Shown: one piece after another, positions 30,725-50,364 of the stretch
Layout of the letters: the number at the start of each line of letters is the position of its first letter
How positions within the stretch are numbered: position 1 is the stretch's first letter
Source: Verrucomicrobiia bacterium
GTDB lineage: Bacteria > Verrucomicrobiota > Verrucomicrobiia > Opitutales > Cerasicoccaceae
Direction of reading: 5' to 3'
Length of the DNA stretch: 64,000 nt
Assembly (NCBI GenBank): GCA_030432235.1
Contig: JAUIHT010000004.1
Location: 310,001-374,000 of the forward strand
Made by a program: the position numbers and the translations under genes
The notes under the pieces: generated by a model
Database searches by the model: none
What the model was told of the DNA's origin: nothing
What the model saw: the letters and a program-made list of their open reading frames with translations, nothing else

Positions 30725-30738
30725 TACGTAAAAAACTG

Positions 30739-30768: not shown

Positions 30769-30850
30769 GCATACGCGAGTGTGAGCAGGTTTATCCTGCC
30801 AGCGAGCCATGCTATGCAGCCAGCTTTTAACATTAGCGAAGGAGAACCAT

Positions 30851-31837: not shown

Positions 31838-31921
31838 GTACAAGGGTATGCTCGGGGTTTCTGTCCCCGGCATGCATGATTATAAGGGAGGATGAATTCA
31901 CGAACGAAAGGAGCTCCCTTC

Positions 31922-32191: not shown

Positions 32192-32220
32192 TAAATAGTA
32201 TTTCTTGATTCTTTACACTT

Positions 32221-32246
32221 GCCGGGGAATTTCCCCGGCTTTTTTA
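32221..32246 (+). terminator. Rho-independent terminator
   Basis: A 7-bp GC stem (GCCGGGG with CCCCGGC) with the loop AATTT is followed by TTTTTT, 30 bp behind the small protein gene. Confidence 0.85.
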
Positions 32247-32284
32247 TACGAAGAGCCGTATCTACTAATACAACCTTTTCCATC

Positions 32285-33328
32285 ATGCCGAAAAGACCCA
32301 TAGACCGCGACTGGGACGAGGAAGCAAACTCTCGCTGGGCGGACCGCTATGCCCGGTATTTCGAAAGTGCGCCCGGCGGTCAGGACCGTATTGAAAAACA
32401 CATGGTACAGGAGCTTTCCCGACACCTGGGAGAGAAGAATGACAGGGGTCGTCAGGATAAAACGGGCGTAATCGTCGTAGCTGACCAGAAAAAAGCCGAT
32501 GAGATGAATAAAGCGGTTCGCGAGGAGATGAGGGCGAAAGGTGTCCTGTCGAGCGAAGAAAGGACGGTGGAGCGGCTGCAAAGGCTTGATTGGTCCAACG
32601 CGCAAAAATCCAGGCAAGATAACTATGCGGGCAAAGGCAATATACTCCGGGCGCGGTTTCTTGAAGACGTGGGCGATTTTAAGAAAGGAGATGTCTATCC
32701 CATCACCGGGCCAGCACCTAAAGCAGACGGATTAGGCTGGGATGTGCTTGTTGACAAGGGACAGGCTCAAATCGGCGAACTGCCCATAAAAAATCCTGAC
32801 TCTTTCGAAATCTGTTCGCGACAGGAAATTGCGCTCACAAAAGGCGAGCAAGTCCGTGTCACAAAGGACACCGAACACCTCCGGTATACACGCGGCATCC
32901 ATCCCGACAAAGATAAAGATACTTTCGCCTTCAAAGAGAATGAACAGTACCGCATCGATAATTGCGGAGAGCGTGATCTCAAGTTGGGCGCTAAGGAGAT
33001 TTCCAACTCCAATCCGCATTACACCTATGGCTACGCTATTACACCGGAGCAGTTACCGAATTACCGTCTGGATAAAGTAATGGTGGCCGATGACAGAGCA
33101 AAGGAACACCCCAGGCTACAAGCCTACGCGGAAAAATACCCTAAAACAGTCGAGTTTTATCAGGATAAGGAATTGGAGCCCTCGAAAGGGCGCGATTTCA
33201 GTCACCTGGATGCACCCGCCCGTTTCCAGCACTTGCTGCGCGAGCCCAGTGAATCAGAACGACATGCAGGCAGAAAACGTGAGAGGCAACACGAACACGA
33301 GCGCGACGAACCGGAGATGGAGATTTAG
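32285..33328 (+). CDS. TraI-helicase-derived orphan domain protein
   Basis: A 347-aa protein. Its C-terminal half parallels the end of the MobF relaxase-helicase encoded at 35525-38326. TKGEQVRVTKDTEHLRYTRG through ENEQYRIDN matches the relaxase's SKGDTIRLTAAVEIPRG through RGSFYQVTG, and NPHYTYGYAIT matches CPHFTHGYAITADSAQ, the motif V region of the helicase. No Walker A is present, so it is an accessory domain without an ATPase motor. The N-terminal 150 residues (YARYFESAPGGQDRIEKHMV) are not recognised. The ATG at 32285 lies in frame with no clear Shine-Dalgarno. It may compete with or assist relaxase. It ends 4 bp into the converging gene. Confidence 0.7.
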   Translation: MPKRPIDRDWDEEANSRWADRYARYFESAPGGQDRIEKHMVQELSRHLGEKNDRGRQDKTGVIVVADQKKADEMNKAVREEMRAKGVLSSEERTVERLQRLDWSNAQKSRQDNYAGKGNILRARFLEDVGDFKKGDVYPITGPAPKADGLGWDVLVDKGQAQIGELPIKNPDSFEICSRQEIALTKGEQVRVTKDTEHLRYTRGIHPDKDKDTFAFKENEQYRIDNCGERDLKLGAKEISNSNPHYTYGYAITPEQLPNYRLDKVMVADDRAKEHPRLQAYAEKYPKTVEFYQDKELEPSKGRDFSHLDAPARFQHLLREPSESERHAGRKRERQHEHERDEPEMEI

Positions 33329-33885
33329 GCGGCAGGCCTGGCTTCGTCAGTTTCAGAAACAGCATAGCGGGAGTCGGTCTGCATCTCGCTCAGGTTTTCC
33401 GCATAGCGTGCACGGATGTGGCTGGCCAAATCGTGCCCGCCCAATGCCTCCAGCAGGACTGCAGCTTTTTCCTTCAGAACCGGATCCGCCTTGGGGTTAT
33501 GAGTATACTCCAAGCAAAGTTTCTCTGTAATGCTTCCCAGCCCGGCGTATTTGGCGTTGGCCCTGGATGTATAACGAGCGTGGTTAAAGATTGAGGGGCA
33601 CATCGGTGTAAAAAAGCCCGGCTCAAAAGAGAAAGCCGCGCTCATGGCCCACTTTTGAAAATTCGCCTCAGCTCCCAAGACGACGGCCAAAGCGCCCCCC
33701 GCTTCAACTTTCAACAAAGTCTCGCAATTTTGGAAGCTGCCAAACTTGTCGATTTTTGGACTGTCTAAGGACAAATTCCACAAGCGCGCGGTCTGAATCA
33801 TGCAATCCAGCTCCGAATTGATCGCACCCTGTATCACTTGGATGTCCCGCTTCAAGTCAATGGCAATAATGTCTGTGATATCCAT
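33325..33885 (-). CDS. Hypothetical protein with near-consensus promoter
   Basis: A 186-aa cytoplasmic-looking protein of unknown family (DIIAIDLKRDIQVIQGAINS near the start, VLLEALGGHDLASHIRARYA near the end). It is convergent with the TraI-derived gene, overlapping its last 4 bp. A strong sigma-70 promoter lies upstream at 33936-33964, so it is probably well expressed. The N-terminal half resembles a helical bundle and the C-terminal half includes several short helices. No motif suggests an activity. Confidence 0.72.
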   Translation of the reverse strand: MDITDIIAIDLKRDIQVIQGAINSELDCMIQTARLWNLSLDSPKIDKFGSFQNCETLLKVEAGGALAVVLGAEANFQKWAMSAAFSFEPGFFTPMCPSIFNHARYTSRANAKYAGLGSITEKLCLEYTHNPKADPVLKEKAAVLLEALGGHDLASHIRARYAENLSEMQTDSRYAVSETDEARPAA

Positions 33886-34233
33886 ACTGAAGACAATCCT
33901 TGTATACTATGCTTTGTATGTTCGAATGCCAATGTAGTATAGCAGTGCGCTGGCTTGACGTCAATAGACTCGCATCTTTGTACCCTCGCACTGATACATG
34001 TTGTAAGCATATCATATGCTCCTTGGTTCAGGCTGCAACCGCGACCGCTTGGCCTTCCTTTAATAACCTGCCTGGCGCATACCGGGCCTGAGCGCAACCT
34101 GCCAACACGGCTTTCATGGAAACATGAACCTTCCCCGTTTCGGTTGACCCTCACGCCCTCAAGGGCACGCGCCCCATGAGGCAGCATGGAAGGCCCGCGA
34201 TGGTCGCGGACTAACAACACAAAAGGAGACTTT
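33886..34233. other. 348-bp gene-free interval with divergent regulatory signals
   Basis: I see no gene here. The left part holds the promoter for the leftward gene. The right part is GC-rich with short inverted repeats, such as CGCGATGGTCGCG at 34197, and AAAAGGAG as the ribosome site for the rightward gene at 34234. Confidence 0.6.
33936..33964 (-). promoter_or_regulatory. Sigma-70 type promoter for the 186-aa gene
   Basis: On the minus strand TTGACG (33964-33959), a 17-bp spacer and TATACT (33941-33936) are near-consensus -35 and -10 boxes. Transcription would start near 33929, about 45 nt before the ATG at 33885. Confidence 0.75.
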
Positions 34234-34455
34234 ATGACTACGCAAACAACACCTAAAACCGCACCGGACTTCGAGGTGCACGCCGTCACCGAAAAACGCG
34301 GCCAGACACACTGGTTCAAGATTGGGGTGGCTTTCGCCAACAAAGAAGGCCGGGGCTACACCGTCCTCCTGGATGCTCAGCCCATGGGCGACCGCCTGGT
34401 CCTGCTGGAGCCCAAGCCCAAGGCTGACTCGACCGAGGAGCCCATGCCCGTATAA
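34234..34455 (+). CDS. Small conjugative-element protein (73 aa), paralogue-like of 31922 gene
   Basis: A 73-aa protein with an AAAAGGAG ribosome site 6 nt before its ATG. The core HWFKIGVAFANKEGRGYTVL then LDAQPMGDRLVLLEPK shares the arrangement I-G-x-A-F/W ... G-x-G-Y/F ... L-D-x-x-P with the protein at 31922. Such short proteins are common on mobilizable elements of many bacteria, with no known biochemical role. The core folds plausibly as a five-strand sheet. It stands alone between two leftward genes and ends 12 bp before the convergent HTH gene. Confidence 0.78.
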   Translation: MTTQTTPKTAPDFEVHAVTEKRGQTHWFKIGVAFANKEGRGYTVLLDAQPMGDRLVLLEPKPKADSTEEPMPV

Positions 34456-34467
34456 TCGGTTTTCTGT

Positions 34468-35055
34468 CTACTTATCACTGTCGTCAGGCTCCGGTCTGGC
34501 GACCTTTTTGTCCCAAGCGGGCTTCCGATCATGGATCGGGCAGACCCCTGGATATTTTATGGGTTCCTTCCCGCGCAAGAGACGATTAACATTGGCCTCC
34601 TGCACGATTTTTCGGGCCTCGCTGGGTCGGCCATGCAGCCTAAAATGCCTCGCTTTCAAGTCCACAGTAACCGACTCGCCCAGCTCGTCGACAGCGGCCT
34701 GTAGGGGCGGACTGCACTGATCAGACTCGCGCGCTTCCTCCATCATAGCTCGCAGGGCGGCCTCGGCCATGCGCTCCTCTTCATATTCCTTCCGCGTCCA
34801 GGGAAAGCGCATCGGCACTTCTCTTCGAAGGCGGTGGTTACGCCGCCGTGCCCGTTGCAGTTCATAGTATTGGCGGCAGCTTTCCGGTGTAACCGCTCCA
34901 TTGGTACCGGCCTGGATGCGGCGCATCATCTCTGCGCTAGGCAGACGCTGGCCTTTTAAGTAGCGGTGAATGGTATTGCGGCTGGCCGCGCCGATAACTC
35001 TAGCGAAGGCAGCCGGTGAGAGTTGTTCCCTCATCAAATACTGTGCAAGATTCAT
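34468..35055 (-). CDS. HTH (XRE/YdaS-like) regulator with C-terminal extension
   Basis: A 195-aa protein with an N-terminal Cro/XRE-type HTH: LAQYLMREQLSPAAFARVIG then AASRNTIHRYLKGQRLPSAE. The middle is rich in Arg and Glu (RARRRNHRLRREVPMRF, then EYEEERMAEAALRAMMEEAR). A C-terminal segment ends in CPIHDRKPAWDKKV. It lies downstream of the relaxase cluster and is probably its repressor. An imperfect inverted repeat sits just upstream at 35105, where a self-operator would be expected. Confidence 0.82.
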   Translation of the reverse strand: MNLAQYLMREQLSPAAFARVIGAASRNTIHRYLKGQRLPSAEMMRRIQAGTNGAVTPESCRQYYELQRARRRNHRLRREVPMRFPWTRKEYEEERMAEAALRAMMEEARESDQCSPPLQAAVDELGESVTVDLKARHFRLHGRPSEARKIVQEANVNRLLRGKEPIKYPGVCPIHDRKPAWDKKVARPEPDDSDK

Positions 35056-35104
35056 AGGATGAGGTTGTAAGCAAGAGAGAAGTCCTTCGCTATAGTTGTC
35101 TCCG

Positions 35105-35135
35105 ACTTACTTTCCCTCACTGTGGAAAGGTAAGT
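35105..35135. promoter_or_regulatory. Imperfect inverted repeat, candidate operator
   Basis: ACTTACTTTCC and GGAAAGGTAAGT form an inverted repeat with one extra base, separated by CTCACTGT. It lies 49 bp upstream of the HTH gene's start and just behind the previous gene's stop. The lack of a T-run argues against a terminator. Confidence 0.5.
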
Positions 35136-35139
35136 AAAT

Positions 35140-35532
35140 TCAGGCCTTTAACACACGTATGTCTGTTACGCTGACGCTTTCAGTGGAAAAAGTTCCACCA
35201 CTGTTGACCGAGACACTGGCCAATCGCTGAACCGAAAGCAGCCGCGCCAGGACCACGAGATTGGTGCCGTGAATTTCTATTGAGGCAATCAGCGGACAGG
35301 ACCCGTGTAGGACCAACTTCTGCGCATTGGGTAGTTCGATAAGTCCAATTTGGCTGTAGGGATAAGAGGCCTCCGCACCATTCGGCAAACCCAGCACCAA
35401 GCGCAGGGCCACGTTGCCCTCCCCTTCGATTTCTCGGTAGGTTCTCCCGCCCTTGGAGAGTTCCGGCTTGCGCAGGCGCAGCCCGGCAAAGCGCGCTTCT
35501 TCATCGCCCAGTGAGTGACGGCGGCTATTCAT
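35140..35532 (-). CDS. Hypothetical protein translationally coupled to the relaxase
   Basis: A 130-aa protein starting at the ATG at 35532, which overlaps the relaxase's last codons by 8 bp (ATGAATAG), so it is made together with the relaxase. The sequence (SLGDEEARFAGLRLRKPEL, then VALRLVLGLPNGAEASYPYS) appears all-beta and has no motif that I recognise. Co-expression suggests an accessory role in DNA transfer. Other assignments are not supported. Confidence 0.72.
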   Translation of the reverse strand: MNSRRHSLGDEEARFAGLRLRKPELSKGGRTYREIEGEGNVALRLVLGLPNGAEASYPYSQIGLIELPNAQKLVLHGSCPLIASIEIHGTNLVVLARLLSVQRLASVSVNSGGTFSTESVSVTDIRVLKA

Positions 35533-38326
35533 CAATCGTCCTTTCTGGGCCACGGTTCCAATCTTTGCCGCGTTCCTGTGATTTACGGCTTAGGTTTATC
35601 GCTTGTTCATGGGCTCTCAGGCGGTTGCTATTGCGCGTGAAGGACTCGCGCGAGCGGCCCTTCACCAGTTCACTTGCGCTGCGGCGCGGATTGTCCCTAC
35701 GCACCGCTTCCATCAGTTCTTCCCGACAGTGAGTGTAGACACGGACCTCCTCTCGAGCCCGGCTGATAGCCACATAAAAACGCCGTAAATCAGTGGCACT
35801 AAGCGCATTCTCGCCCATGGAGGCAAAAAGCTTGTCCACGGTCTTTGCCTGCGCGGAATCCGCCGTGATGGCGTAGCCATGAGTGAAGTGTGGACAGTCT
35901 CGGGGCAGGGTCTTGCCTGTGTGCAGTTCGATACCTCCGTCCTTGGCAAAGCCGGTGACCTGGTAAAAACTGCCCCTCGCCAGCACCGTAGGACGTTGCT
36001 CCGGCCCGCGTGGGATTTCCACCGCCGCCGTCAGGCGAATGGTATCGCCCTTCGATAGCCCGACGGCTTCGGGCCGAAAAAGCTCCAGGCGATCCGCGTG
36101 CTCCAGCGGCAAGGACTGGCAACGCCCATCCGCACGACGAGCCAACAAACGTTCGTCCTCGCCGCGCAGTACGGTCAAGCACTCCCCTTTTTCAAAGCCG
36201 TGTCCGCGCCTGCCAAAGCGCAGCACCATGCCCGACTCGTAGCTGGTTGTATCGGCCCGTTCCGCTACGGTTAGCGGCAAGGGCTTGAGCCTGATGAAGC
36301 GCTTTTCTTCATTATCCAGGTGTCCCCTTTCCCGCAGTGCCTGACGGATATGGCGGGTGACGGTTTCACCCTCGTAGTGGGTCGGGGCTACCACCAGCGC
36401 GGTGGTGTTACGTCCGCCCTTACGTTCACCGACCGCCTCGGCGTAGGACTTGGCCAGGTCTTCCATACGCTCTTCCTGAGGTTTTTCGATGATACCGCCA
36501 TGGCGGTCCAATTGGTCAAAGCCCTGTAGGACGCGCCCCTCCGAGATGTGCTCCACCGCTTTCTTCAGCTCGGGATCACGCTGGCGCTTGACCTTGCCCA
36601 AGTGCGCCAGCTCCAGTCCACCAAAGCGCTGCATGGTACGCAGGGCATCCCCGCGCGGCACCGAGCGAATTTGCTTTGGATCACCCGAGAGCACGACCTT
36701 GGCTGCGCTCTTGTCACGTGCCACCTTGAGCAGCGCAAGCATGTCCTGTGTGCCGACCATGCCCACCTCATCGATGAGCAGCACTTGCCCGCGCAGCCCT
36801 TCCTGCATAGCCTCATCGGTCAGCAGACGCTTGATGGTTTCAGCACGAGCAAAGCCCTCGCTACGCAGCACTTCCCGGGAGGCTTCCGCCGTTGGCGCAA
36901 CCACGGTCATGTCGTAGCCCGCGTCGCGTGCCCCGGCTCGGATTTCCTTCAATAAGGTCGTTTTACCTGATCCCGCTTTTCCGATCACCCCCGTCACCCA
37001 GTCGGGACTTTTGAGAATGTGCAAGGCGGCGCAACGTTGCTCGGAAACATCTTTGGATTCACTGCGCAGCATAGGCTCTTTGAACTGGTACGGCCCGGCT
37101 ACCAATGCGGGCGTGGAGGCCCGCCCTTCACTGACCATTCCGATCAGTTCCTGCTCTTCCTCTAATACGGTCAATGTACTGACACGTTTTTCGCCGCTAT
37201 GGGTTCCATGAATGATATCCGAGTTAGCCTCATAGGCGGCAACCACTGTGGCGATATCGGTCCGGCCAATGCCGTGCTTGAGTGCGGAACCCAACAGGCG
37301 TTTTTCGGAAGTCTCCGAGACACGTTCCAACTCGTGCTGAAGCGCATATTCAATGGACTTCCACGCCATTTCTGGATCAGCCAGGATGCGATTTTCGCTG
37401 TAAGCGAAGGCTTCCATGATCATCGAATCCAACTGTTCACGTTCTTGTTCCGTCAAGACTGCCTCCCAAGCATCCCGAAGCTCGGTCATGGTTAAATCCT
37501 TCTCCTTGGCCGCCCGCAGCTTGGCCCCCAAGGCGCTACGCCGTTTGGCGTCAAAAATACCTTCCTTTTGCGCGTAGTCTTCGATTTGCTTTGTGCGCCG
37601 GGAAAATAATTGCAGGAGCCTGGATGGTACCCCGTCAATTTCAAAGGCATTCCGGGTGGGCCGGATGTCATAACCGAGCTTTTGCAGCTCGCCCGCCAGA
37701 CGCGTATGGAAGGCTGCCTGATAGTAATAGGCATCGCGCTTGATTCGCATAAACTCCCCTGCCTTAAACCGTTCCTCCACCGAATCATAAGTTGCGTTGG
37801 CGCAGTAAACATGCATGTGCAGTTGTGGGTCGGGTAAACCTTCAGGTAGCCCATTCATGGCCGGTGCCGGACGAGAGGTGAAATGCGTAAAACTGGCCCA
37901 GATCATATTACCTGTTTTGCGGTCCTCAAAGGCGCCATGGCGTCGAACACGTGTGTTCATGTCCCGTTCAATTTCCATCATCGTTTCCTGTACTGCCCTA
38001 TCCAACGCGACTCGAATGGGCTCGTCATTGAAGCAGGCTTGAAGAAGTGAAACTGACTTGGGCACATCAAAAGTAAAATCATAGCCCGGCCGACGTTTGT
38101 CCGCATCACGCGGAGTGAGGCGCGAACCGTCAGGACGGCGATTCTTCAAAAGCTTGATGAAAGCGTCCTTAGTTACGAGCCCTTCCAATCCCAGCATGAC
38201 CGCACCCTTGCCGCCCCAGTTACCCGCCACTTCCTGTCCCTCCAGGTAATAGTCACCTCGGGTCAGGCATTCCTGGAAATACTTAATGGCAGACTCCACG
38301 GTTTCGCTAACGGTTATCCTGAGCAT
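35525..38326 (-). CDS. MobF-family conjugative relaxase-helicase (TrwC/TraI type)
   Basis: A 933-aa bifunctional relaxase. The N-terminal TrwC domain has catalytic tyrosines in AIKYFQECLTRGDYYLEG (Tyr16, Tyr26/27) and the three-His metal cluster (THF His148 and LHMH His170/His172). The C-terminal RecD2/TraI-type SF1 helicase has Walker A VIGKAGSGKTTL around residue 450, Walker B VLLIDEVGMVG and the motif V segment THGYAITADSAQ. It would nick oriT and unwind the strand for transfer. It is smaller than F TraI (1756 aa) but close to TrwC (966 aa). It heads a leftward operon with the 130-aa gene. The likely oriT is in the 310-bp upstream interval. Confidence 0.95.
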   Translation of the reverse strand: MLRITVSETVESAIKYFQECLTRGDYYLEGQEVAGNWGGKGAVMLGLEGLVTKDAFIKLLKNRRPDGSRLTPRDADKRRPGYDFTFDVPKSVSLLQACFNDEPIRVALDRAVQETMMEIERDMNTRVRRHGAFEDRKTGNMIWASFTHFTSRPAPAMNGLPEGLPDPQLHMHVYCANATYDSVEERFKAGEFMRIKRDAYYYQAAFHTRLAGELQKLGYDIRPTRNAFEIDGVPSRLLQLFSRRTKQIEDYAQKEGIFDAKRRSALGAKLRAAKEKDLTMTELRDAWEAVLTEQEREQLDSMIMEAFAYSENRILADPEMAWKSIEYALQHELERVSETSEKRLLGSALKHGIGRTDIATVVAAYEANSDIIHGTHSGEKRVSTLTVLEEEQELIGMVSEGRASTPALVAGPYQFKEPMLRSESKDVSEQRCAALHILKSPDWVTGVIGKAGSGKTTLLKEIRAGARDAGYDMTVVAPTAEASREVLRSEGFARAETIKRLLTDEAMQEGLRGQVLLIDEVGMVGTQDMLALLKVARDKSAAKVVLSGDPKQIRSVPRGDALRTMQRFGGLELAHLGKVKRQRDPELKKAVEHISEGRVLQGFDQLDRHGGIIEKPQEERMEDLAKSYAEAVGERKGGRNTTALVVAPTHYEGETVTRHIRQALRERGHLDNEEKRFIRLKPLPLTVAERADTTSYESGMVLRFGRRGHGFEKGECLTVLRGEDERLLARRADGRCQSLPLEHADRLELFRPEAVGLSKGDTIRLTAAVEIPRGPEQRPTVLARGSFYQVTGFAKDGGIELHTGKTLPRDCPHFTHGYAITADSAQAKTVDKLFASMGENALSATDLRRFYVAISRAREEVRVYTHCREELMEAVRRDNPRRSASELVKGRSRESFTRNSNRLRAHEQAINLSRKSQERGKDWNRGPERTIDE

Positions 38327-40432: not shown

Positions 40433-40460
40433 CGCCGGGTGTTCCGTCCGGCGTTTTTTT
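40433..40460 (+). terminator. Rho-independent terminator after RadC-like gene
   Basis: The stem CGCCGG with CCGGCG, the loop GTGTTCCGT and a run of seven T lie 21 bp after the stop. The hairpin could also serve the converging gene, whose stop overlaps its end. Confidence 0.85.
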
Positions 40461-40887
40461 ATGGCTCGATGCACCGGTTCAGGAAGGCCTGAAACTCACG
40501 GGAGTAATAGCCTGAATTCTGCCTCCAGTATTGGCGTGATGTCTCAAGAGACGAAAAGTCTTGAATGTCTCGTTCCAGCCCCTCCCAGGACTCTTGTGTC
40601 AGAAATCGGTTTTTCCATCCCAGATAGGTCAGGTCAATTTGATTGAAACATTGCTGCAGGAATCGGCGCTGCTTAGTTTTATCTCGTATGGCGCGGCCAT
40701 CGAGTACCTTCAACAAATCCGGATCTTTTAGCCCTGCCGCGATCAGTGCACGATTTATCTCATATATGCGGATGACCGCTTCGTACCGTAATTGCCGCGA
40801 TAGCACACGCAATTGCCAAATCAGCGCCAGCAGGGCCGTAAATTCAACGGTGGTTTCCATGGCGGCAAGCCAGTCTGATATGGTCAA
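40459..40887 (-). CDS. Small membrane-anchored hypothetical protein
   Basis: About 142 aa. The TTG at 40887 is preferred over the ATG at 40860 because GGAGGTG stands 7 nt upstream. The protein has one hydrophobic N-terminal segment (ETTVEFTALLALIWQLRVL) and a helical cytoplasmic tail (RQLRYEAVIRIYEINRALIA, then QQCFNQIDLTYLGWKNRFLT). This layout of one helix then about 100 residues resembles DUF4760-like proteins found beside mobile genes, but I am not certain. The function is not known. Confidence 0.68.
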   Translation of the reverse strand: MTISDWLAAMETTVEFTALLALIWQLRVLSRQLRYEAVIRIYEINRALIAAGLKDPDLLKVLDGRAIRDKTKQRRFLQQCFNQIDLTYLGWKNRFLTQESWEGLERDIQDFSSLETSRQYWRQNSGYYSREFQAFLNRCIEP

Positions 40888-40964
40888 CTCAAACACCTCC
40901 AGTGTCGGGCACGAAAAGCCTCCCCAGCTTGATAGCACGGGGAGGCTCGTAAAGAAAGAGAGGC

Positions 40965-41186
40965 TTACAACTGGGCCGCGATTTTCTCAAAAGTGTGTCG
41001 CGGCATCCTCACGTAGTCTTCACCCGCCGGTTGACCAAGAGAAGCCCTCTCTTCAACCGTGAGTATATAGCCCTGCACGATGATGTCTCCGTTGTCCGTG
41101 AGGATTGCTGCCGGGCAACCACCATTGATGCATTGGACCGCCTGTAGCCCATGCTCGCCGATAATTTTCTGTATCTTTATAGCCAT
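40965..41186 (-). CDS. Small hypothetical protein (73 aa)
   Basis: A 73-aa protein with a compact beta hairpin region (CPAAILTDNGDIIVQGYIL) followed by a charged helix (VEERASLGQPAGEDYVRMPR, then HTFEKIAAQL). No family is recognised. Its start overlaps the end of the PEP-CTERM gene by 10 bp, so the two are probably co-transcribed. The pairing of a small protein with a surface protein is not explained. Confidence 0.65.
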   Translation of the reverse strand: MAIKIQKIIGEHGLQAVQCINGGCPAAILTDNGDIIVQGYILTVEERASLGQPAGEDYVRMPRHTFEKIAAQL

Positions 41187-41776
41187 TTCAATTTTCGAGT
41201 GAAAAGTAACCCCAAACTCAGCAGAGCCAGAACAAGCGCATATGTAGATGGTTCGGGAATCGCTTGACCAACCTGGTAAGTGACATTCGGGCCATTGGCG
41301 CTGCCCAGTCCGGAGGACTTTCCAGCGCTGACAATCATTTGATATTCATTCAAATTGCCCAAGTTCAGTTGAGAACCAGTACCGGTGATGGTAATGGAGG
41401 CATTGACTGAATCACCTGGAGCCCACAGACCGCTGTTTTTGGATAGGTAAATGAAATCACCGAGGTTTTGGGAACCTGTAGGGCTATATCCACCCGAAGT
41501 CGTTTTCAAATCGCCACCCCCGTTGTTAACGATGTTGATTTCACCACCTAAGACATCTCCGGAACTTAGCACCCAACCGCTGACGTTCGGTACGCCAATG
41601 TAGAGGTTCCCTTGCGAAGATGGGCCTACGTTCGCCCCGGCGTCAATCGACCCGGTTAGGTCGAAACTCATCGTGTTTCCGGCAATAGAGAAGTTTCCTG
41701 TGGAGATAATAGCCGAAGCGATGGGCATCAGTGCCACAGCCACGGCTTGTGTGAGGATCAGTCGGGTGAGTCTCAT
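41177..41776 (-). CDS. PEP-CTERM sorted exported protein inside the mobile region
   Basis: A 199-aa protein. The signal peptide (LTRLILTQAVAVALMPIASA) is followed by a Gly/Ser/Asn-rich beta body (GNTMSFDLTGSIDAGANVGP), and the terminus IPEPSTYALVLALLSLGLLF with TRKLKWL is a classic PEP-CTERM anchor. The host's exosortase must process it, which suggests adaptation of the element to PEP-CTERM hosts. It is divergent from a short tyrosine recombinase, and a palindromic site (41816-41841) lies between them. Confidence 0.9.
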   Translation of the reverse strand: MRLTRLILTQAVAVALMPIASAIISTGNFSIAGNTMSFDLTGSIDAGANVGPSSQGNLYIGVPNVSGWVLSSGDVLGGEINIVNNGGGDLKTTSGGYSPTGSQNLGDFIYLSKNSGLWAPGDSVNASITITGTGSQLNLGNLNEYQMIVSAGKSSGLGSANGPNVTYQVGQAIPEPSTYALVLALLSLGLLFTRKLKWL

Positions 41777-41815: not shown

Positions 41816-41841
41816 TGAACAAAATTACGGAATTTTGTTCA
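41816..41841. repeat. Palindromic recombinase/operator site, left copy
   Basis: TGAACAAAATT - ACGG - AATTTTGTTCA: 11-bp arms around a 4-bp centre. The core at 41818-41839 is the exact reverse complement of the core at 42480-42501, so the two copies are in opposite orientation on either side of the recombinase gene. Confidence 0.85.
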
Positions 41842-41855
41842 ACAGGAGACTCGAC

Positions 41856-42437
41856 ATGCGGCAGCAATTATCACTGCGCGACCGTCAAGGGCGCCGAAAA
41901 TACCTCAATGCACAGGAACGTGAGCGCTTCTTGGAGGCCTCCCAGTCGCTGCCACTTACTAAACGACTCTTTTGCGAAACGTTATGCTTTACAGGATGTC
42001 GAATTTCTGAGGCCCTGCAAATAACCCAGTCCTGCATCGATCCTGACGAAAGTATAATTGTCTTCAAGACATTGAAGCGGCGCAGATTTGAACAACGGTA
42101 TATTAAGGTCCCCAAAGAATACTGCTTAGCTTTAAAACAGCTACGGGCTGGACCGTTTTCTTTCTGCCGAACTACCGCTTATCTGACTGTTAAAAAAGTT
42201 ATGGAACAGGCCAACATCGTTGGAATTCAGGCCTCACCGAAGGGGTTACGACATGGCTTTGGAGTGGCCTGTGTCATCAAGAACGTGTCGATCAGCCGAA
42301 TTGCCAAGTGGATGGGACACGGCGATATTAGAACCAGCCTCATCTATCTGGATATTTCCGGTGATGAGGATTTGGCACTCATGCAACGAACTTGGCCGCA
42401 AATCACTCGAAATCTAAAATACAATCATGAAGCGTAA
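41856..42437 (+). CDS. Short tyrosine recombinase (Xer/integron-like catalytic domain only)
   Basis: A 193-aa recombinase, shorter than full XerC/D (about 300 aa) because the N-terminal core-binding domain is largely missing. The catalytic motifs are TGCRISEALQI (Arg), LRHGFGVACVI (box II His, Arg in LRHG), and WMGHGDIRTSLIYLD with the His and nucleophile Tyr. The ATG at 41856 has AGGAG 7 nt upstream. Inverted copies of a palindromic 22-bp site flank the gene at 41818-41839 and 42480-42501, consistent with inversion of the gene or with a site-bound regulator. Short solo recombinases of this kind are known from invertible and mobile units. Confidence 0.85.
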   Translation: MRQQLSLRDRQGRRKYLNAQERERFLEASQSLPLTKRLFCETLCFTGCRISEALQITQSCIDPDESIIVFKTLKRRRFEQRYIKVPKEYCLALKQLRAGPFSFCRTTAYLTVKKVMEQANIVGIQASPKGLRHGFGVACVIKNVSISRIAKWMGHGDIRTSLIYLDISGDEDLALMQRTWPQITRNLKYNHEA

Positions 42438-42475
42438 AAGTGCTTGAACGACTGAGTCGCATAAGCTACTTATAT

Positions 42476-42505
42476 ATTAAACAAAATTCCGTAATTTTGT
42501 TTAAT
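42476..42505. repeat. Palindromic recombinase/operator site, right copy
   Basis: ATTAAACAAAATT - CCGT - AATTTTGTTTAAT: perfect 13-bp arms with a 4-bp centre. The inner 22 bp is the reverse complement of the left copy's. It lies about 50 bp before the XRE regulator start. Confidence 0.85.
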
Positions 42506-42554
42506 AATAGGATAAAATGCAAACTAGAGGCGTGGTTCGCCAAGGAGCAATATT

Positions 42555-42902
42555 GTGCCTAGAAAAACGAAGGGAGGCCCAACCTCCCTGGATAGAGATA
42601 TCGGACGGAGACTAAAGATGTTAAGGCTTCTTAACGGGCTAACTCAAATGGAACTAGCCAAGGGCATTGGAGTTACCTTTCAACAAATACAGAAGTACGA
42701 ACGTGCAGAAAATAGAATCAGCGCATCTACTCTAATCAAAATATCCGACTTCCTAAAAGTCAGCCCAATGGCCTTGCTATCCGACGAAATTGAGAAATCC
42801 CTAAAGGGCGGACTTTCAAAAGATGAAATTCAGCTAATTCGGGACTACCGAAAAGCTAATGACCATATAAAAAACGCTGCAAAAAACGTACTTAGGCAGT
42901 AG
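42555..42902 (+). CDS. XRE-family transcriptional regulator
   Basis: A 115-aa Cro/CI-like regulator: RDIGRRLKMLRLLNGLTQME then LAKGIGVTFQQIQKYERAEN and RISASTLIKISDFLKVSPMA form the complete HTH_3 domain. A C-terminal helix (LIRDYRKANDHIKNAAKNVL) follows. It starts with GTG at 42555, 7 nt after AAGGAG. It stands between the recombinase and the CRISPR locus, and the palindrome at 42476-42505 lies in its promoter region. It may control the recombinase and possibly the divergent tracrRNA/cas genes. The element's own repressor is the simplest reading. Confidence 0.92.
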   Translation: MPRKTKGGPTSLDRDIGRRLKMLRLLNGLTQMELAKGIGVTFQQIQKYERAENRISASTLIKISDFLKVSPMALLSDEIEKSLKGGLSKDEIQLIRDYRKANDHIKNAAKNVLRQ

Positions 42903-43118: not shown

Positions 43119-46100
43119 ATGACTACCTTGCCTGATGCTACCTCTTTCACCTTTGATATCGGCCACTCCAGCATAGGCTGGGCGGCACTCCAAGAGCCGT
43201 CCTCTCCCGGTGGAGCCCCGCAGTTGCTTGGCTGCGGCAGTGTGGTCTTCCCTCCGGACGACTGCCAGAACCAGCAACGAGCGGCCTTCCGGCGACAACG
43301 ACGTCACATCGCCTCCACCCGCAACCGCATCAAACGCCTGAGCAAGCTCCTCGCCCACATCGGCGCTCTCACTCCGGAGCAGTTGTCAGCCCGGCACACG
43401 CAGGGCGGCGGGCACAGTTTCCCCTGGCTTCTAGCCGCCCGCGTTCTGGTTTCAGACAAGACGCTGAACTGGGAGGAGCTGTGGGACGTGCTCCGCTGGT
43501 ATGCCCACAACCGTGGCTACGACGGCAACGCTCTCTGGTCCGGGCAAACCCAGGGTGACGACACCGACGAGGATGCCCAAAAAGTGGAAAACGCCCGAAA
43601 GCTGATGGAGGAATACGGCACAGAAACCATGGCGGAAACGGTCTGCGCCTTCCTCGGGCTCGATCCACGCATCCATAAAAATCGCGCCCCCACCCTCTAT
43701 TTCAAGGGCAACAACGCCGCCTTCCCCCGGCAAATTACCGTGGATGAGGTCCGGCGCATTCTGGAGGCGCATAAAGGCAAATTGCCCGGTCTCGACGAGG
43801 CTTTCATCGACGCCCTCATATGCGACTGGAAAGTCGCAAGGGATTCGCTCGGAGTCACCATCCGCCTGCCCGGACGCTATCGCGGCGGCCTTCTCTTCGG
43901 GCAGATGGTGCCACGCTTTGACAACCGCATCATCCCGCATTGCCGCATCAGCGGAAAAAAGACGCCCGACCGCCATTGCTCGGCCTTTTACCGCTACCGC
44001 TGGGGTATGCTCATGGTCAACATGCGCAAGCTCGACCCGCTGACGGAGCGTCCTGTCCCGCTCAGCGCGGAAGATCGACAAAAGCTCCATATCGTAATGG
44101 AGCAAGAAGGCTACATGACCAAGTCATCCCTCGGCAAAGCCCTGCGCGATGTCGTTGGGGTCGAGCCCACCAATCTCGATACGTTGTTTCTGACATCGGA
44201 AATGGAAAAGGCACTCATTTTCGATCCGCTCAAGCGAGAGTTGAACAGCTCGCCTTTGAAAGAAGTCTGGCCGCACATCCCTGAAAAATGGCAGAAGGTC
44301 TTCGCGGGCCAGCTCTACAAGGGACGCAAAATCAACGGACGCTCCCCTGCCCTGCGCGATTGGCGCGAGCGCTTGGCCGCCGACGGTGTCGAACTGAGCG
44401 GCTTCGATACCGCTCTGGATGAAGCCCTGAATAAAGCAATCAAGGCACACCGCAGCAAAAAGAAAGCCCCGCCGACCCTCACCACACTTCTCAACATGGA
44501 ATTGCGCCTGCACCATCAGGCCAGCGGCCGCTCACCTTACGCGCGCGACCTCATGGAGAAAGCCTGGGAGCAAATCACGGACGGACTCGACCCCAAGGCG
44601 CGCTTCGAGGACGGCAGCTACGGTTGCCTGGCCGAGACCCCGGAAGTCGTCGCCCGCCAACTGGAAGTCGATATCGACCAGCAGACCAACAACCACCTTG
44701 TCCGCCACAGACTGCATATCTTCCGCAAACTGCTGGCTGACATGACAGCCCGCTATGCCGGCGGCAACCCCGAGGCGATTTCCCAAATCGCTATCGAGGT
44801 CGTGCGTGACCTGCAGGAGTTCTCCGGAAAAACCGCCAAGGAAAAGGCCCAACTCCTCGGCATTAAGCTGTCCGACCATCGTGCCGCCAGCGCTTGGCTG
44901 GAGACACAACGTAAAGAGCTCGGTCTAAACTTTGCTATCACTGCGGGCCTGATCAAGAAAGTCCGCATCGCTAGAGACATGGGGTGGACCTGCCCTTTTA
45001 TCGGTAAAAAATATAGCCTGCAGGACATCCTCGAGGATCGCGTGGACCGCGAGCACATCATTCCCCGTTCTCTGCGCCCTTCAGATTCCCTCGAGTCCCT
45101 CGTCCTGACCTTCAAGCACATCAATCAATGGAAAGGTAAACGAACGGCCTTGCGCTTTATCGAAGAGACTACGGATGACACACGAACACTTTCCCCAGAC
45201 AAGTATCAAAAGTTTGTCGACAGCTTGCCAAGCAAAGGTGGCTCGGACGACGACCAGAAACGCCGCCGCCTGCGCAAGCAGTTCCTACTCATGCGTGACT
45301 ATAACAAGCGCGAAGGCGACTTCACTGGGCGCGACCTGACCCAGACCAGCCACCTCAACAAGCTCGCCGCGCGCGAGGCGTTGAGCTACTTTGCGTCACT
45401 GCGCCCCAATGCAGATGAGCTCCCCCTCAAACCGCACCAGATTGTCCACATGGCCGGTAGTGTGACTAGCGCCGTGAAACGCGCCTGGCGTATCGGGGGC
45501 ACACTTGCACAGGCCAATCCCCAGATTCTGGATGAAAGCGGTCAGCCAAGGCCCAAAGGAGAAATCCGCGATGTCACCCACCTGCACCACGCTCTGGATG
45601 CCGCCACCCTGGCACTGTCCGCCTGGTACTTCCCCAAGGATGGACGGCTCTGGACACTCATGAGCCGACGCCGCCTCAACGAAACCGAAAAAGCCGAGCT
45701 GCAATCCCTGTCTCGACTCCCAATGACCTTCGGCTCGGATGGGAAATTTGATCTGCAAGACCTTCTCGCACCCCTCAAGGCTCAGCTCGTGGCCCGGCTG
45801 GCCGAGAAACGCGTAGTCATGCACCAGCCCCGCACCATGCGTGGACTGAAAGTGCAGCAGAATACGTGGCGTGTGCTGGGCCCAGACGAGAATGATCCTG
45901 AAAAATATACGATTACCCAAGCGATGCGAGATTCATCAACACGTAAGCGCAAAAGAAAGTTCGGCAGTGAAAAAGTGCGTAAGCTTCACGGAACACATCC
46001 TGTGAACGGCAGCGGCAAGCTATCCCACCTTAAGGGGGCGCTTATCATCGAAACGAACTATGGCGTGTGTCTCGACCCGCAGCCAGAGGTCATTCCCCAT

Positions 46101-46415
46101 TTCCAGGTCTGGCAGAAGCTGCAGGAAATCAGAAATGCCAACGGAGGCGATACACCGCGCATTTTGCGCAATGGCGATGTCATACAGCTTTCCAAAGGTA
46201 AATTTCATGAACTGAGCCCTCGTTGGAGAATTCGCTCAGTCAAGGAGGATAGCTCAAAAGGCATACTTGTCGATATGACCTTCCCTGACTTGGTGAAGGT
46301 AGAAAGCAAAGGCTATGGTATCAGACGCGATGTCAGACTGAGAACACTACTGAAAGATGGCCTTTGTATCCTCGGAACTGATTATACCGGGACTGTCGCC
46401 CAATCTGAATCGTAG
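43119..46415 (+). CDS. cas9: Cas9 nuclease, type II-C
   Basis: A 1098-aa RNA-guided nuclease. RuvC-I FTFDIGHSSIGWAAL has Asp13. An Arg-rich bridge helix (QQRAAFRRQRRHIASTRNRI) is followed by the recognition lobe. RuvC-II is IAIEVVRDL (Glu560), HNH is DREHIIPRSLRPSDSLESL with His646, and RuvC-III is VTHLHHALDAATLAL with His823/824 and Asp827. All catalytic residues appear intact. Segments such as LLFGQMVPRFDNRII and WYAHNRGYD are characteristic of the compact verrucomicrobial (Akkermansia-like) II-C clade. cas1 follows after 5 bp. No clear Shine-Dalgarno precedes the ATG (CTCCTAAG), which is unusual. Confidence 0.97.
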   Translation: MTTLPDATSFTFDIGHSSIGWAALQEPSSPGGAPQLLGCGSVVFPPDDCQNQQRAAFRRQRRHIASTRNRIKRLSKLLAHIGALTPEQLSARHTQGGGHSFPWLLAARVLVSDKTLNWEELWDVLRWYAHNRGYDGNALWSGQTQGDDTDEDAQKVENARKLMEEYGTETMAETVCAFLGLDPRIHKNRAPTLYFKGNNAAFPRQITVDEVRRILEAHKGKLPGLDEAFIDALICDWKVARDSLGVTIRLPGRYRGGLLFGQMVPRFDNRIIPHCRISGKKTPDRHCSAFYRYRWGMLMVNMRKLDPLTERPVPLSAEDRQKLHIVMEQEGYMTKSSLGKALRDVVGVEPTNLDTLFLTSEMEKALIFDPLKRELNSSPLKEVWPHIPEKWQKVFAGQLYKGRKINGRSPALRDWRERLAADGVELSGFDTALDEALNKAIKAHRSKKKAPPTLTTLLNMELRLHHQASGRSPYARDLMEKAWEQITDGLDPKARFEDGSYGCLAETPEVVARQLEVDIDQQTNNHLVRHRLHIFRKLLADMTARYAGGNPEAISQIAIEVVRDLQEFSGKTAKEKAQLLGIKLSDHRAASAWLETQRKELGLNFAITAGLIKKVRIARDMGWTCPFIGKKYSLQDILEDRVDREHIIPRSLRPSDSLESLVLTFKHINQWKGKRTALRFIEETTDDTRTLSPDKYQKFVDSLPSKGGSDDDQKRRRLRKQFLLMRDYNKREGDFTGRDLTQTSHLNKLAAREALSYFASLRPNADELPLKPHQIVHMAGSVTSAVKRAWRIGGTLAQANPQILDESGQPRPKGEIRDVTHLHHALDAATLALSAWYFPKDGRLWTLMSRRRLNETEKAELQSLSRLPMTFGSDGKFDLQDLLAPLKAQLVARLAEKRVVMHQPRTMRGLKVQQNTWRVLGPDENDPEKYTITQAMRDSSTRKRKRKFGSEKVRKLHGTHPVNGSGKLSHLKGALIIETNYGVCLDPQPEVIPHFQVWQKLQEIRNANGGDTPRILRNGDVIQLSKGKFHELSPRWRIRSVKEDSSKGILVDMTFPDLVKVESKGYGIRRDVRLRTLLKDGLCILGTDYTGTVAQSES

Positions 46416-46420
46416 GAAAA

Positions 46421-47341
46421 ATGTCCTACCACGTGGTCAACATCGACAGCCCGGAGTGCAGTGTTAGCTGCTCCAAGGGACAGTTGACCTGCCGTGAGGC
46501 CGATGGACAAGTCCGCCAATTGCCCTTGGAAGACGTCGCGGCCATCGTCATCACCAGCTTTTCCGCGCATCTGCACAGCCATCTGCTCCTGGAAAGCGCC
46601 CGGCACGGTGTTTCCCTTGTCATATGCGAACGCTTCCAGCCCGTCAGCCTGCTGCTTCCCGCCAATCGCAGCAGTGATACCCTTTTAACCAAAGCGGCCC
46701 TCTCCCTTCCTAAACGCACCACGGAAACACTCTGGAGAAAGACCCTCGATGCCAAGTGCCTCAATCAGGCCCTGCTTGCACGTCACCTTGTACCCGAACA
46801 CCCAAAGCTGGAGCCACTGGAGAAAACCGCACGGCGTAAGAGCCTGCTCAAAGAGTCACCCTGCGCCCGCTACTACTGGCAGATTTTCGCCGACGCAATC
46901 GGGGCAACTGACTTCCGACGCAGCCGGGACGGTGGCGGAGCCAACGACTTGCTCAACTTCGGTTACGCCGTGCTGCTCTCCCTCATCCTGCAAAAGCTGT
47001 TCGCTCTCGGACTCGATCCCACCCTCGGCATCTCTCACGAAACCCGCGAACGCGCCACTCCCTTGGCTTACGACCTGATGGAACCATTTCGTCCGTGCGT
47101 AGACTGGCGCGTCGCTCGCTGGCTACGCGAAGAAGCACCGGTTGGCCAAACGCGCATCGACGGACGCTTCCGTCGTTACGTAACGGAATTTGTCGTCGAA
47201 CGTGTCGGCTATCTGGAGTTGGAAATGCCCCTTCGCAACTGCCTCGAGGAAGTCGTGCGCAGTTTCCGCAAAGCCGTGCTCACCAAGCAAACACGCAACT
47301 ACCAACCATGGACCCCCTCAAATTCAAAATGGGTTGGCTAA
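46421..47341 (+). CDS. cas1: Cas1 integrase of the CRISPR adaptation complex
   Basis: A 306-aa Cas1 of the type II subfamily. The N-terminal beta domain (CSKGQLTCREADGQVRQLPL) and the helical lobe are present. The acidic/His active-site residues are seen as KESPCARYYWQIFAD (Glu), LGISHETRERATPLAYDLME (His, Asp) and the loop PFRPCVDWRVARWL. It begins 5 bp after cas9 and overlaps cas2 by 34 bp. With cas2 it would integrate new spacers at the leader end. No csn2 or cas4 is present, which makes this subtype II-C. Confidence 0.96.
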   Translation: MSYHVVNIDSPECSVSCSKGQLTCREADGQVRQLPLEDVAAIVITSFSAHLHSHLLLESARHGVSLVICERFQPVSLLLPANRSSDTLLTKAALSLPKRTTETLWRKTLDAKCLNQALLARHLVPEHPKLEPLEKTARRKSLLKESPCARYYWQIFADAIGATDFRRSRDGGGANDLLNFGYAVLLSLILQKLFALGLDPTLGISHETRERATPLAYDLMEPFRPCVDWRVARWLREEAPVGQTRIDGRFRRYVTEFVVERVGYLELEMPLRNCLEEVVRSFRKAVLTKQTRNYQPWTPSNSKWVG

Positions 47342-47643
47342 TCGTCGCCTTCGACCTGCCGGTCACCGAAAAGGAAGCCCGTAAGGCCTACTCGGACTTT
47401 CGCAAATTCTTATTGAATGACGGCTACCAGATGATACAGTTCAGCGTGTATGCTCGTTCACTTGTCACCTACTCAAGAATGCAGACGCATATACGACGCC
47501 TTGAGCAGGAAATCCCGCCTGAAGGCAGCATCCGAGCTTGGTACGTTACACAGGCACAATGGCAACGAAGCCTCGTCATCCACGGCAAACCAGCAGAAAA
47601 AGCTGACCCGGAATCACTTCCGGATCAGCTTATTTTCTGGTAA
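47308..47643 (+). CDS. cas2: Cas2 adaptation protein
   Basis: A 111-aa Cas2. GWLIVAFDLPVTEKEARKAY carries the beta1 Asp, and FRKFLLNDGYQMIQFSVYAR is the second core segment. The ATG at 47308 overlaps cas1's end by 34 bp. An alternative ATG at 47329 gives 104 aa and keeps all conserved parts. The gene ends 31 bp before the first repeat of the array. Its role is the Cas1-Cas2 integration scaffold. Confidence 0.95.
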   Translation: MDPLKFKMGWLIVAFDLPVTEKEARKAYSDFRKFLLNDGYQMIQFSVYARSLVTYSRMQTHIRRLEQEIPPEGSIRAWYVTQAQWQRSLVIHGKPAEKADPESLPDQLIFW

Positions 47644-47674
47644 GCATTTGACTGTCAGCCACTTCAGGATTGGC

Positions 47675-48897
47675 AGTCTTCACACTTAGGAATTGGATTC
47701 AAGGCAAAGCGGCATCACCAACGACGCCGCCACCAATACCAGTCTTCACACTTAGGAATTGGATTCAAGGCAAAGCCAAATCGGGCGCGGCCATGAAAAC
47801 ACCACCAGTCTTCACACTTAGGAATTGGATTCAAGGCAAAGCGAGTTGATTGGTTAGATGCCCAGCTCGGGCAGTCTTCACACTTAGGAATTGGATTCAA
47901 GGCAAAGCCATGACGGGCAGACCTCCTCGCAGATTTTGAGTCTTCACACTTAGGAATTGGATTCAAGGCAAAGCGCGAGCCTCTGTCCACCCGCACGCCT
48001 CCGCAGTCTTCACACTTAGGAATTGGATTCAAGGCAAAGCCAGTCATCAGGAGGAACCCGTCGGAACCGTAGTCTTCACACTTAGGAATTGGATTCAAGG
48101 CAAAGCCCGCTGCTCATCGCGGAATCGTCGCTTATCAGTCTTCACACTTAGGAATTGGATTCAAGGCAAAGCCGAGGACCTTCTCGACCGTCGCGGTTTC
48201 GCAGTCTTCACACTTAGGAATTGGATTCAAGGCAAAGCAAGAAACTGTGCTCTGCAACCGCGTCCGCCAGTCTTCACACTTAGGAATTGGATTCAAGGCA
48301 AAGCAGACAGCCTCGGCCAATCCCGCTACTCTGGAGTCTTCACACTTAGGAATTGGATTCAAGGCAAAGCGTCTGCGGATGGTTCATGCGGTGCATGGCC
48401 AGTCTTCACACTTAGGAATTGGATTCAAGGCAAAGCGAAAGGAGTAATCATTGTCCTGGCTGGGAAGTCTTCACACTTAGGAATTGGATTCAAGGCAAAG
48501 CCAATCCGGAGAGAACCACGCCAGCCCAACCAGTCTTCACACTTAGGAATTGGATTCAAGGCAAAGCTAGTTTTTGTGCATGCTGTCTGTGGAGTGAAGT
48601 CTTCACACTTAGGAATTGGATTCAAGGCAAAGCTGTCGTTTGATTGTAGTCGCCTGTTGCTGGAGTCTTCACACTTAGGAATTGGATTCAAGGCAAAGCT
48701 TTTCGTCCGGCTTGCATGAGTAGTTTTCGAGTCTTCACACTTAGGAATTGGATTCAAGGCAAAGCAGCTGGATGCTCGCGGCCATCACGTCACGTAGTCT
48801 TCACACTTAGGAATTGGATTCAAGGCAAAGCAGGAGAAATAGGTTGGCGTCGGCGATGGATAGTCTTCACACTTAGGAATTGGATTCAAGGCAAAGC
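47675..48897 (-). CRISPR. Type II-C CRISPR array, 19 repeats and 18 spacers
   Basis: The 36-bp repeat reads, on the plus strand, AGTCTTCACACTTAGGAATT then GGATTCAAGGCAAAGC. All 19 copies look identical by eye. Spacers are 30 nt except the twelfth from the left, which is 29 nt (48437-48465). The tracrRNA anti-repeat pairs with the start of the repeat in the minus reading (GCTTTGCC...), so crRNAs are probably transcribed leftward from the AT-rich side near 48900, toward cas2. I found no spacer matching this window by eye. Confidence 0.97.
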
Positions 48898-49000
48898 TTG
48901 GTAACATATTATTTTCGTGATGATCATAATGACGCTGCCAACTAAAAACACTTTTTTCGTAAAGTATTACCAGAAGCCGCGTAATAGAATAGGAGAACCT
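48898..49000 (-). promoter_or_regulatory. AT-rich CRISPR leader
   Basis: AT-rich sequence (48898-48960) lies next to the last repeat. On the minus strand it holds TATGAT (48928-48923) and TAATAT close to the array, which may act as -10 boxes. No consensus -35 is evident. It also forms the intergenic space before the rightward integrase at 49024. Confidence 0.55.
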
Positions 49001-49023: not shown

Positions 49024-50343
49024 ATGACCTCCTACGTTTTCAAACCGCGCCGTCGTGACCGAGACGGGAAATCCGTTCCTGCCAAGCATTACCGAGGGCG
49101 CTTTCGGCTCGCTGGCGACTACGCCGTAACCGAGATTGCACTTAACACTACCGATAAACAAGTAGCGCAAAAGCGCCTTGAAGAAATCGTGTTGGAGAAA
49201 GAACGCGAACGAGAGGGACTGATAGCTCCAAAGCTCCAGCGTGTATCTGCTGAGAGGCCACTCCTTGAGCACATGGTGGAATATCTTAAAGATCTTAATA
49301 CCCTCGGACGCGATAAGGAGTATATTGACCGACTCGAAACCCGTATACGCCGTTTGATTACCCAATGTGATTGGCGTCTGGCCATGGATATTACAGCCGA
49401 CCGCTTTACGCACTGGCGCACTGAGCAGTCCGATTTTGCTCCTAAAACACTCAATGACCACCTTAACGCCATTAGCAGCTTACTGAACTGGATGGTAGAA
49501 AAGGGGCGCTTGATAGCTAACCCCTTGAAAAAGGTCCAAAAGGTCGATTTGCGCGGGCGACAGGCCAAGAGAAGGGCATTCACCGATGAGGAATTCAAAA
49601 AACTACTTTCAGTCTCCAATCAAAATCGCAGCCTCATCTACCTGACAGCCGCCTACACAGGTATGCGTAAAGGGGAGTTGATCGGTCTTGTCTGGGGCGA
49701 CTGCTACATGGAGGAGGAGCGACCTTACCTAGCCGCACGTGCGGTCACGACCAAGAACGCTAAGGATGCAACTATTCCTTTGCATCCGCGCTTGGCAGCG
49801 GAGCTACTTACTGTGCGGCCACAGGATGCCAAAGCCAACGATCCTGTCTTTCCGGCAATGAAAGACATTAGCCACGCCATCCGGCGGGATATTGAGCGAG
49901 CGGGGATTGAACGCATTGACGCTATGGGGCGGAAGCTGGATTTCCACGCCTTACGCTACACTTTCGCTACTCGACTGGCCCGCGAGGGCACAGCGCAACG
50001 CACCGCTCAGGAGCTTATGCGTCACAGCGACCCCAAGTTGACGGCCCAGATCTATACCGACGCAAGCCAACTGCCGACTTTTGATGCGGTCAAATCGCTT
50101 TCCTGGGTAGATGGAAAGTGTGACAACGAGATTTCAAATCCCCCACTCATAGCCCCACTTTCTCCAGACTTTTGGGGTCCTCTCCAGTCACGGCATGGCA
50201 CAGTCAATCATTGCGATGTATCCACGAAACCCGTTGAGGATGAGTCGGATAGTCTCGAATTGGCAGGCGCTGTCGCCAATGAGAAATGGCGTCCCCACGG
50301 GGATTCGAACCCCGGTCGCTGGAATGAAAATCCAGTGTCCTAG
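49024..50343 (+). CDS. Tyrosine integrase next to tRNA-Glu
   Basis: A 439-aa phage-type integrase. The catalytic motifs are AAYTGMRKGELIGLVWGD (Arg), LDFHALRYTFATRLAREGTA (box II) and MRHSDPKLTAQIYTDASQ (His, Tyr), with catalytic Arg/His/Arg/His/Tyr all present. The last 75 residues are not part of the core domain. The final ones (WRPHGDSNPGRWNENPVS) are encoded by the antisense strand of tRNA-Glu, so the ORF runs into the att site. It is probably the integrase that inserted the element into tRNA-Glu. The nearest Shine-Dalgarno-like AGGAG is about 28 nt upstream of 49024, which is weak. Confidence 0.93.
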   Translation: MTSYVFKPRRRDRDGKSVPAKHYRGRFRLAGDYAVTEIALNTTDKQVAQKRLEEIVLEKEREREGLIAPKLQRVSAERPLLEHMVEYLKDLNTLGRDKEYIDRLETRIRRLITQCDWRLAMDITADRFTHWRTEQSDFAPKTLNDHLNAISSLLNWMVEKGRLIANPLKKVQKVDLRGRQAKRRAFTDEEFKKLLSVSNQNRSLIYLTAAYTGMRKGELIGLVWGDCYMEEERPYLAARAVTTKNAKDATIPLHPRLAAELLTVRPQDAKANDPVFPAMKDISHAIRRDIERAGIERIDAMGRKLDFHALRYTFATRLAREGTAQRTAQELMRHSDPKLTAQIYTDASQLPTFDAVKSLSWVDGKCDNEISNPPLIAPLSPDFWGPLQSRHGTVNHCDVSTKPVEDESDSLELAGAVANEKWRPHGDSNPGRWNENPVS

Positions 50344-50364
50344 ACCTGACTAGACGATGGGGAC
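50290..50364 (-). tRNA. tRNA-Glu (anticodon UUC)
   Basis: The minus strand folds as a full cloverleaf. The acceptor is GTCCCCA with TGGGGAC, the anticodon stem is CTGGA with TCCAG around the loop TTTTCAT (anticodon TTC), and the T-arm carries GGTTCGAATCC. The discriminator G is at 50290 and an encoded CCA follows at 50289-50287. Its 3' half is overlapped by the integrase ORF on the other strand and is the probable attachment site. Confidence 0.96.

Follow-up and report, generated by a model that had tools for sequence, protein, structure and literature searches.

A small tyrosine recombinase gene lying between two inverted copies of a palindromic sequence raises the question of whether the enzyme inverts its own gene at these sites, or whether the palindromes are operators, transposon ends or resolution sites. 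The locus is part of a 64,000-nucleotide stretch of DNA from a Verrucomicrobiia bacterium, and it is this whole stretch, as analysed here, that we call the window. A sequence-only reading had described the two palindromes and the gene, proposed a self-inverting switch and named operators as the alternative; a check of the sequence finds both palindromes and the gene exactly where it had placed them. The features of the locus are as follows.

40459–40938, minus strand: DUF6082-like protein (PF19560, E 8e-6, slightly under the cut-off)
40965–41186, minus strand: 73-aa protein whose family recurs upstream of the recombinase (19 examined units)
41177–41776, minus strand: secreted PEP-CTERM-type protein of 199 aa, the divergent gene of the left flank (PF07589, E 0.0012)
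41816–41841, no strand: predicted left recombination site, TGAACAAAATT-ACGG-AATTTTGTTCA, with the asymmetric core ACGG at 41827–41830
41831–42488, no strand: predicted invertible segment of ~660 bp between the cores, drawn from the site positions and from a homologue that is flipped in unit L155 relative to unit L154
41856–42437, plus strand: tyrosine recombinase of 193 aa consisting of the catalytic domain only (PF00589, E 8e-15; family alignments; AlphaFold2 model)
42438–42474, plus strand: interval from the recombinase stop to the right site, the position of an outward promoter-like signal in relatives
42475–42506, no strand: predicted right recombination site, TATTAAACAAAATT-CCGT-AATTTTGTTTAATA, with the core CCGT at 42489–42492
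42555–42902, plus strand: XRE/HTH_3 regulator gene of the right flank (PF01381, E 4e-15)

The central parts of the two sites, AACAAAATT-ACGG-AATTTTGTT on the left (41818–41839) and AACAAAATT-CCGT-AATTTTGTT on the right (42480–42501), are 22-bp palindromes, the right one being the reverse complement of the left. At full length the left site is a perfect 26-bp palindrome with 11-bp arms (41816–41841) and the right site a 32-bp palindrome with 14-bp arms (42475–42506), and both belong to the top four spaced palindromes of the 64-kb window. A search of the 5.72-Mb genome with the 18 arm positions, allowing up to two mismatches, returned only two places, both of them the bracketing sites, and a reversed control pattern of the arm positions gave no match in the same genome. 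The window locus has the inverted sites and the matched core of a DNA inversion system, and its predicted invertible segment contains the recombinase gene only. We consider it likely that this is an invertible segment with its own tyrosine invertase, placed beside a secreted-protein gene in a Hin-like layout. The outer arms differ between the sites (TGAAC/GTTCA at one vs TATTAAAC/GTTTAATA at the other), each site being self-complementary; they pair within a site and not across sites, consistent with the absence of a net recent inversion at this locus, and the arm pattern appears to record no recent odd number of inversions.

The gene product matches Phage_integrase (Pfam PF00589, E 8e-15) over the catalytic domain alone, in agreement with its earlier description as a solo tyrosine recombinase of 193 residues. 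The usual N-terminal core-binding domain is absent, and matches to the XerA profile begin near XerA residue 88. The best start is the ATG at 41856, located behind an AGGAG, with the stop codon ending at 42437; a longer ORF with a TTG start begins within the left site. Residues R49, K74, R132, H155 and Y164 are invariant in the family alignments and K129 occupies the first position of box II, and the conserved R, K, H/K-x-x-R, H/W and Tyr of tyrosine site-specific recombinases are all present. The AlphaFold2 model (pLDDT 87) finds its best fold matches in the XerA and XerH catalytic domains. Membership in the FimB/FimE subfamily was rejected, as the profile scores are far under the NCBIfam cut-offs (29.5 bits against 221 for NF007370 and 24.2 against 222 for NF007371) and the gene lies between the sites rather than outside the element. 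A genome search found no other close relative, such that the recombinase is single-copy in its own genome.

Relatives were sampled from the same order, the phylum, plasmids and a genome-wide scan, yielding more than 100 loci; in the genome-wide contig scan a single protein query gave no relatives, and a query with a four-sequence alignment succeeded. Phage records contained no relatives of the recombinase and IMG/VR a single weak match, and enterobacterial plasmid matches, at ~27% identity, were excluded as too distant. The family is scattered over phyla and plasmids. In its Verrucomicrobiota members (33–47% identity) the recombinase gene is flanked on each side by a palindromic site, and the bracket-type Verrucomicrobiota units form a single supported clade (32 bracket-type rows out of 42). 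When the related loci were scanned for two palindromic sites that have equal spacers and matching cores, 48 of the 106 showed an inverted pair and not one showed a direct pair, counts that are not independent since the loci share descent; the control core relations gave six pairs (complement) and one (reversed), the six probably including cores that satisfy both relations. The gene-plus-site unit that the sequence-only reading had suggested looking for in related genomes is thus present in them, in 48 of 106 loci with inverted and matched pairs. The 3–6-bp core varies from locus to locus yet is matched and inverted within each locus, and because such a match is needless for an operator and needed for strand exchange, it favours recombination sites.

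Alignment of two units from congeneric genomes (L154 in G564 and L155 in G565) shows, at the level of the sequences compared, that the bracketed segment with its recombinase inverts in nature. Over 682 bp the recombinase segments are 81.5% identical and run in the same sense, both flanks align in the opposite sense, and the segment and flank alignments overlap only inside the ~28-bp sites, which are the breakpoints. The secreted-protein gene and a helix-turn-helix gene are consequently found on exchanged sides. In both units the outer half-site on the secreted-protein side, GAACCAGTTT, stays with its flank and the inner half changes together with the segment, as predicted by strand exchange in the core. 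The genome with the flipped unit, G565, is ~87% complete and in 370 contigs. In two alphaproteobacterial units (L071 and L098) the secreted-protein gene lies to the right, no more than a hint of further flips.

Among 31 units that have a conserved flank gene, 30 are oriented the same way (~27 of 28 after removal of duplicate assemblies), the tally consisting of 19 units that have the small upstream protein and 11 that have a second secreted family one way, and L155 the other way. This predominance does not support free flip-flopping between species, and flipping would be rare, repressed or strongly selected. The earlier proposal of a self-inverting switch is well supported by comparison as regards inversion, given the matched inverted pairs (48 of the 106 loci) and the L154/L155 flip, but a freely toggling switch is not supported, in view of the single orientation of 30 of 31 units.

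The mechanism that we propose would begin with a dimer of the 193-aa recombinase bound at each palindrome, on its two arms. The enzyme would pair the left and right sites and exchange strands within the short asymmetric core, and with the cores inverted, the outcome would be that the 660-bp segment, recombinase gene included, is inverted. The 3′ end of the segment would thereby move from the XRE side to the secreted-protein side, and since this end carries an outward promoter-like element in relatives, orientation would set which flank gene is read, and also which flank transcribes the recombinase. The outward promoter-like signal is enriched at the segment 3′ end across relatives (combined p 1e-5, and p 0.008 without the family that holds L154 and L155) and absent at the left end across relatives (p 0.78), all of these p-values being indicative, as they derive from mononucleotide shuffles of related sequences. 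The corresponding interval in the window (42438–42474) contains no convincing promoter (p ~0.5), and a sigma-70 scan of the window gave two hits against 1.2 expected by chance. In six units (L052–L054 and L153–L155) an in-frame start codon of the secreted-protein gene is located inside the site core, and in the flipped L155 a TTGAGA-17-TACAAT element immediately precedes the start codon of the secreted-protein gene. We infer a Hin-like logic in which the regulator would be read in one orientation and the secreted-protein gene in the other, weakly so for the window locus. We likewise infer that the 193-aa recombinase is the acting enzyme, that the window copy is active and that the neighbouring genes are switched.

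Were the palindromes operators instead, the XRE protein or an autorepressing recombinase would control the divergent and XRE promoters through them, without strand exchange. Each palindrome does lie just upstream of a gene, and in plasmid and alphaproteobacterial relatives the palindromes are confined to the upstream side of the recombinase. Recombinases also commonly autoregulate from their own bound sites, an arrangement that may coexist with inversion here. Matched, inverted and locus-specific cores would however be superfluous for an operator, an XRE homolog adjoins only six of the searched units whereas palindrome pairs are present in many more, and the difference between L154 and L155 is a base-level inversion at homologous sites. 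This alternative of the sequence-only reading is therefore a poor fit, with an XRE homolog in a minority of the units and no need for an inverted core match, and we regard it as quite unlikely. A main role in multimer resolution of a circular host mobile element, with the inverted pair and the inversion as side effects, is an unlikely explanation too; close relatives are present on plasmids and short contigs, several with a single site and its own core, and the window unit is near a MobF relaxase gene, but one site would be enough for resolution and an inverted second site is nevertheless kept in most Verrucomicrobiota units.

The palindromes could also be the terminal inverted repeats of a minimal transposable element, as they bracket the recombinase, some brackets contain extra genes (L041, L051, L069, L072 and L098) and the family is scattered over phyla and plasmids. 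We find this very improbable: the same flank genes are kept across many genera, L154 and L155 differ by inversion and not by presence or absence, there are alphaproteobacterial relatives with both sites upstream of and outside the gene, the window recombinase has one copy in its own genome, and a non-systematic look encountered no empty site or target duplication.

The reading as an invertible segment with its own invertase can be set beside known systems. As in the H-segment of the Salmonella flagellar phase switch, the invertase gene is inside the segment, the sites are inverted and, in relatives, an outward promoter-like element is near one end, although a promoter in the window segment is not convincing. 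Hin is a serine recombinase acting with a Fis enhancer, whereas the window cassette is of the tyrosine type with a shorter segment and a locus-private core, and a Hin-type segment proper is ruled out by the tyrosine-type enzyme. FimB and FimE resemble the window enzyme as tyrosine recombinases of ~200 aa with only the catalytic domain, acting at inverted sites with a surface-protein gene adjoining, but their genes lie outside the 314-bp invertible element and the window gene lies between the sites. FimB and FimE act on fimS, where the promoter is in the invertible element and the recombinase genes are linked to it (PMC6458436).

The invertible promoters (invertons) of gut bacteria are similar to the inverted pairs of Alphaproteobacteria, which are ~130 bp apart, upstream of the recombinase and beside a divergent gene that often encodes an exported protein. 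Unlike in invertons, the Verrucomicrobiota segment includes the recombinase gene and, at some loci, cargo. Recombinases have been described near such switches and only occasionally within the segment, where the example is the serine-type Hin, and the four Alphaproteobacteria in that survey had no inversion signature (PMC5903667). The R64 shufflon and its Rci enzyme share a tyrosine recombinase, short asymmetric sites and segment inversion in a mobile element, but in the shufflon numerous sites are present and it is the pilV ends that are rearranged, whereas the window cassette has a single palindromic pair. In RIT elements the tyrosine recombinase genes, three per element, are flanked by an inverted repeat and a palindromic sequence (PMC3414803); these elements are ~3.5 kb and occur in several copies, in contrast to the single short recombinase and conserved neighbourhood of the window. 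A search of open-licence papers found no report of this recombinase family or of a Verrucomicrobia inversion switch.

Known tyrosine invertases are usually encoded outside the DNA that they flip, whereas in these cassettes the DNA that flips is the gene of the enzyme, a design that recurs across Verrucomicrobiota. Sites with matching cores are readily detected by computation, and invertible segments could be located without reads. Private cores would also supply mutually insulated pairs of recombinase and site for engineering.

Two site layouts are present in the family. The Verrucomicrobiota pair brackets the gene, or the gene and cargo, whereas most paired Alphaproteobacteria have both sites upstream. 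Among 36 such upstream pairs the centre-to-centre distance is 121–172 bp (median 132), with 22 at 128–135 bp and seven at 140–143 bp, and the sequence between the sites is unconserved past close relatives; constraint thus seems to act on spacing and not on sequence. The upstream pair is beside a divergent gene, often for an exported protein, in L061, L068, L084, L104, L117 and ~30 further alphaproteobacterial loci, and this protein is porin-like in L068 and L104. Four pairs of related alphaproteobacterial loci of the 130-bp upstream type revealed no opposite orientation. Several relatives on plasmids or short contigs (Jiella, Aurantimonas, Desulfosarcina) have a single upstream palindromic site with its own core, and such enzymes may be multimer resolvases. 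The Jiella units L074, L099, L108 and L137 encode near-identical recombinases on separate short contigs whose sequences are unrelated as far as the single site. The cores of these sites differ slightly, and they are likely plasmid-specific resolution sites.

Further genes are included inside the bracket in L041, L051, L069, L072 and L098. The L051 bracket extends from -37 to +4475, with 24 of 24 compared positions matched, and encloses LmuA, LmuB and an ABC-3C middle component, and that of L041 encloses a 1019-aa SIR2-domain protein along with the recombinase. The L069 region (L069:2940–6510) contains two adjacent recombinase units with differing cores, the first bracket having two further genes. 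By eye, type I restriction-modification-like operons are located directly past the right site, outside the bracket, at L050:1600–7637 and L056:2074–7465. Defence genes often have recombinases as neighbours, and for a serine invertase a link to phage resistance has been reported (PMC12529663). Self-inverting cassettes with private cores might, as a doubtful extension of the inversion reading, serve the mobile islands of Verrucomicrobiota as docking units that can flip, and make immunity phase-variable. Such cassettes would alternately link to expression a secreted protein or regulator, or the bracketed Lamassu/ABC-3C (L051) or SIR2 (L041) genes, and if these cargo brackets invert, they would be defence systems switched by DNA inversion.

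On the left side of the window cassette, the PF07589 match of the 41177–41776 product is slightly under the Pfam cut-off and the N-terminus is signal-peptide-like. The small upstream family (71–74 aa) is beside the recombinase in 19 units and the DUF6082-like protein is kept upstream of it in 19 units, both without known function. On the right, the XRE gene has a GTG start with AAGGAG upstream, and directly to its right is a type II CRISPR-Cas system (43119–48900) encoding Cas9 (1098 aa), Cas1 and a Cas2-like ORF, with a repeat array of 66-bp period and ~17 copies. The window Cas9 and Cas1 genes are outside the bracket, on its right-hand side, and their region also has a MobF relaxase gene and an integrase gene. 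This integrase gene, for 439 aa (49024–50364), overlaps a tRNA-Glu (50287–50364) at its 3′ end, and no second copy of the tRNA-Glu end (attL, at least 14 bases) was found within the 64-kb window. Leftward, the region 28034–38326 contains a large 536-aa integrase, a MobF/TraI-like relaxase (35525–38326) and what we take to be an ArdC-like gene, a content that suggests a mobilizable element. Unit L055 has a gene near its recombinase whose product is similar at the N-terminus to this MobF/TraI-like relaxase.
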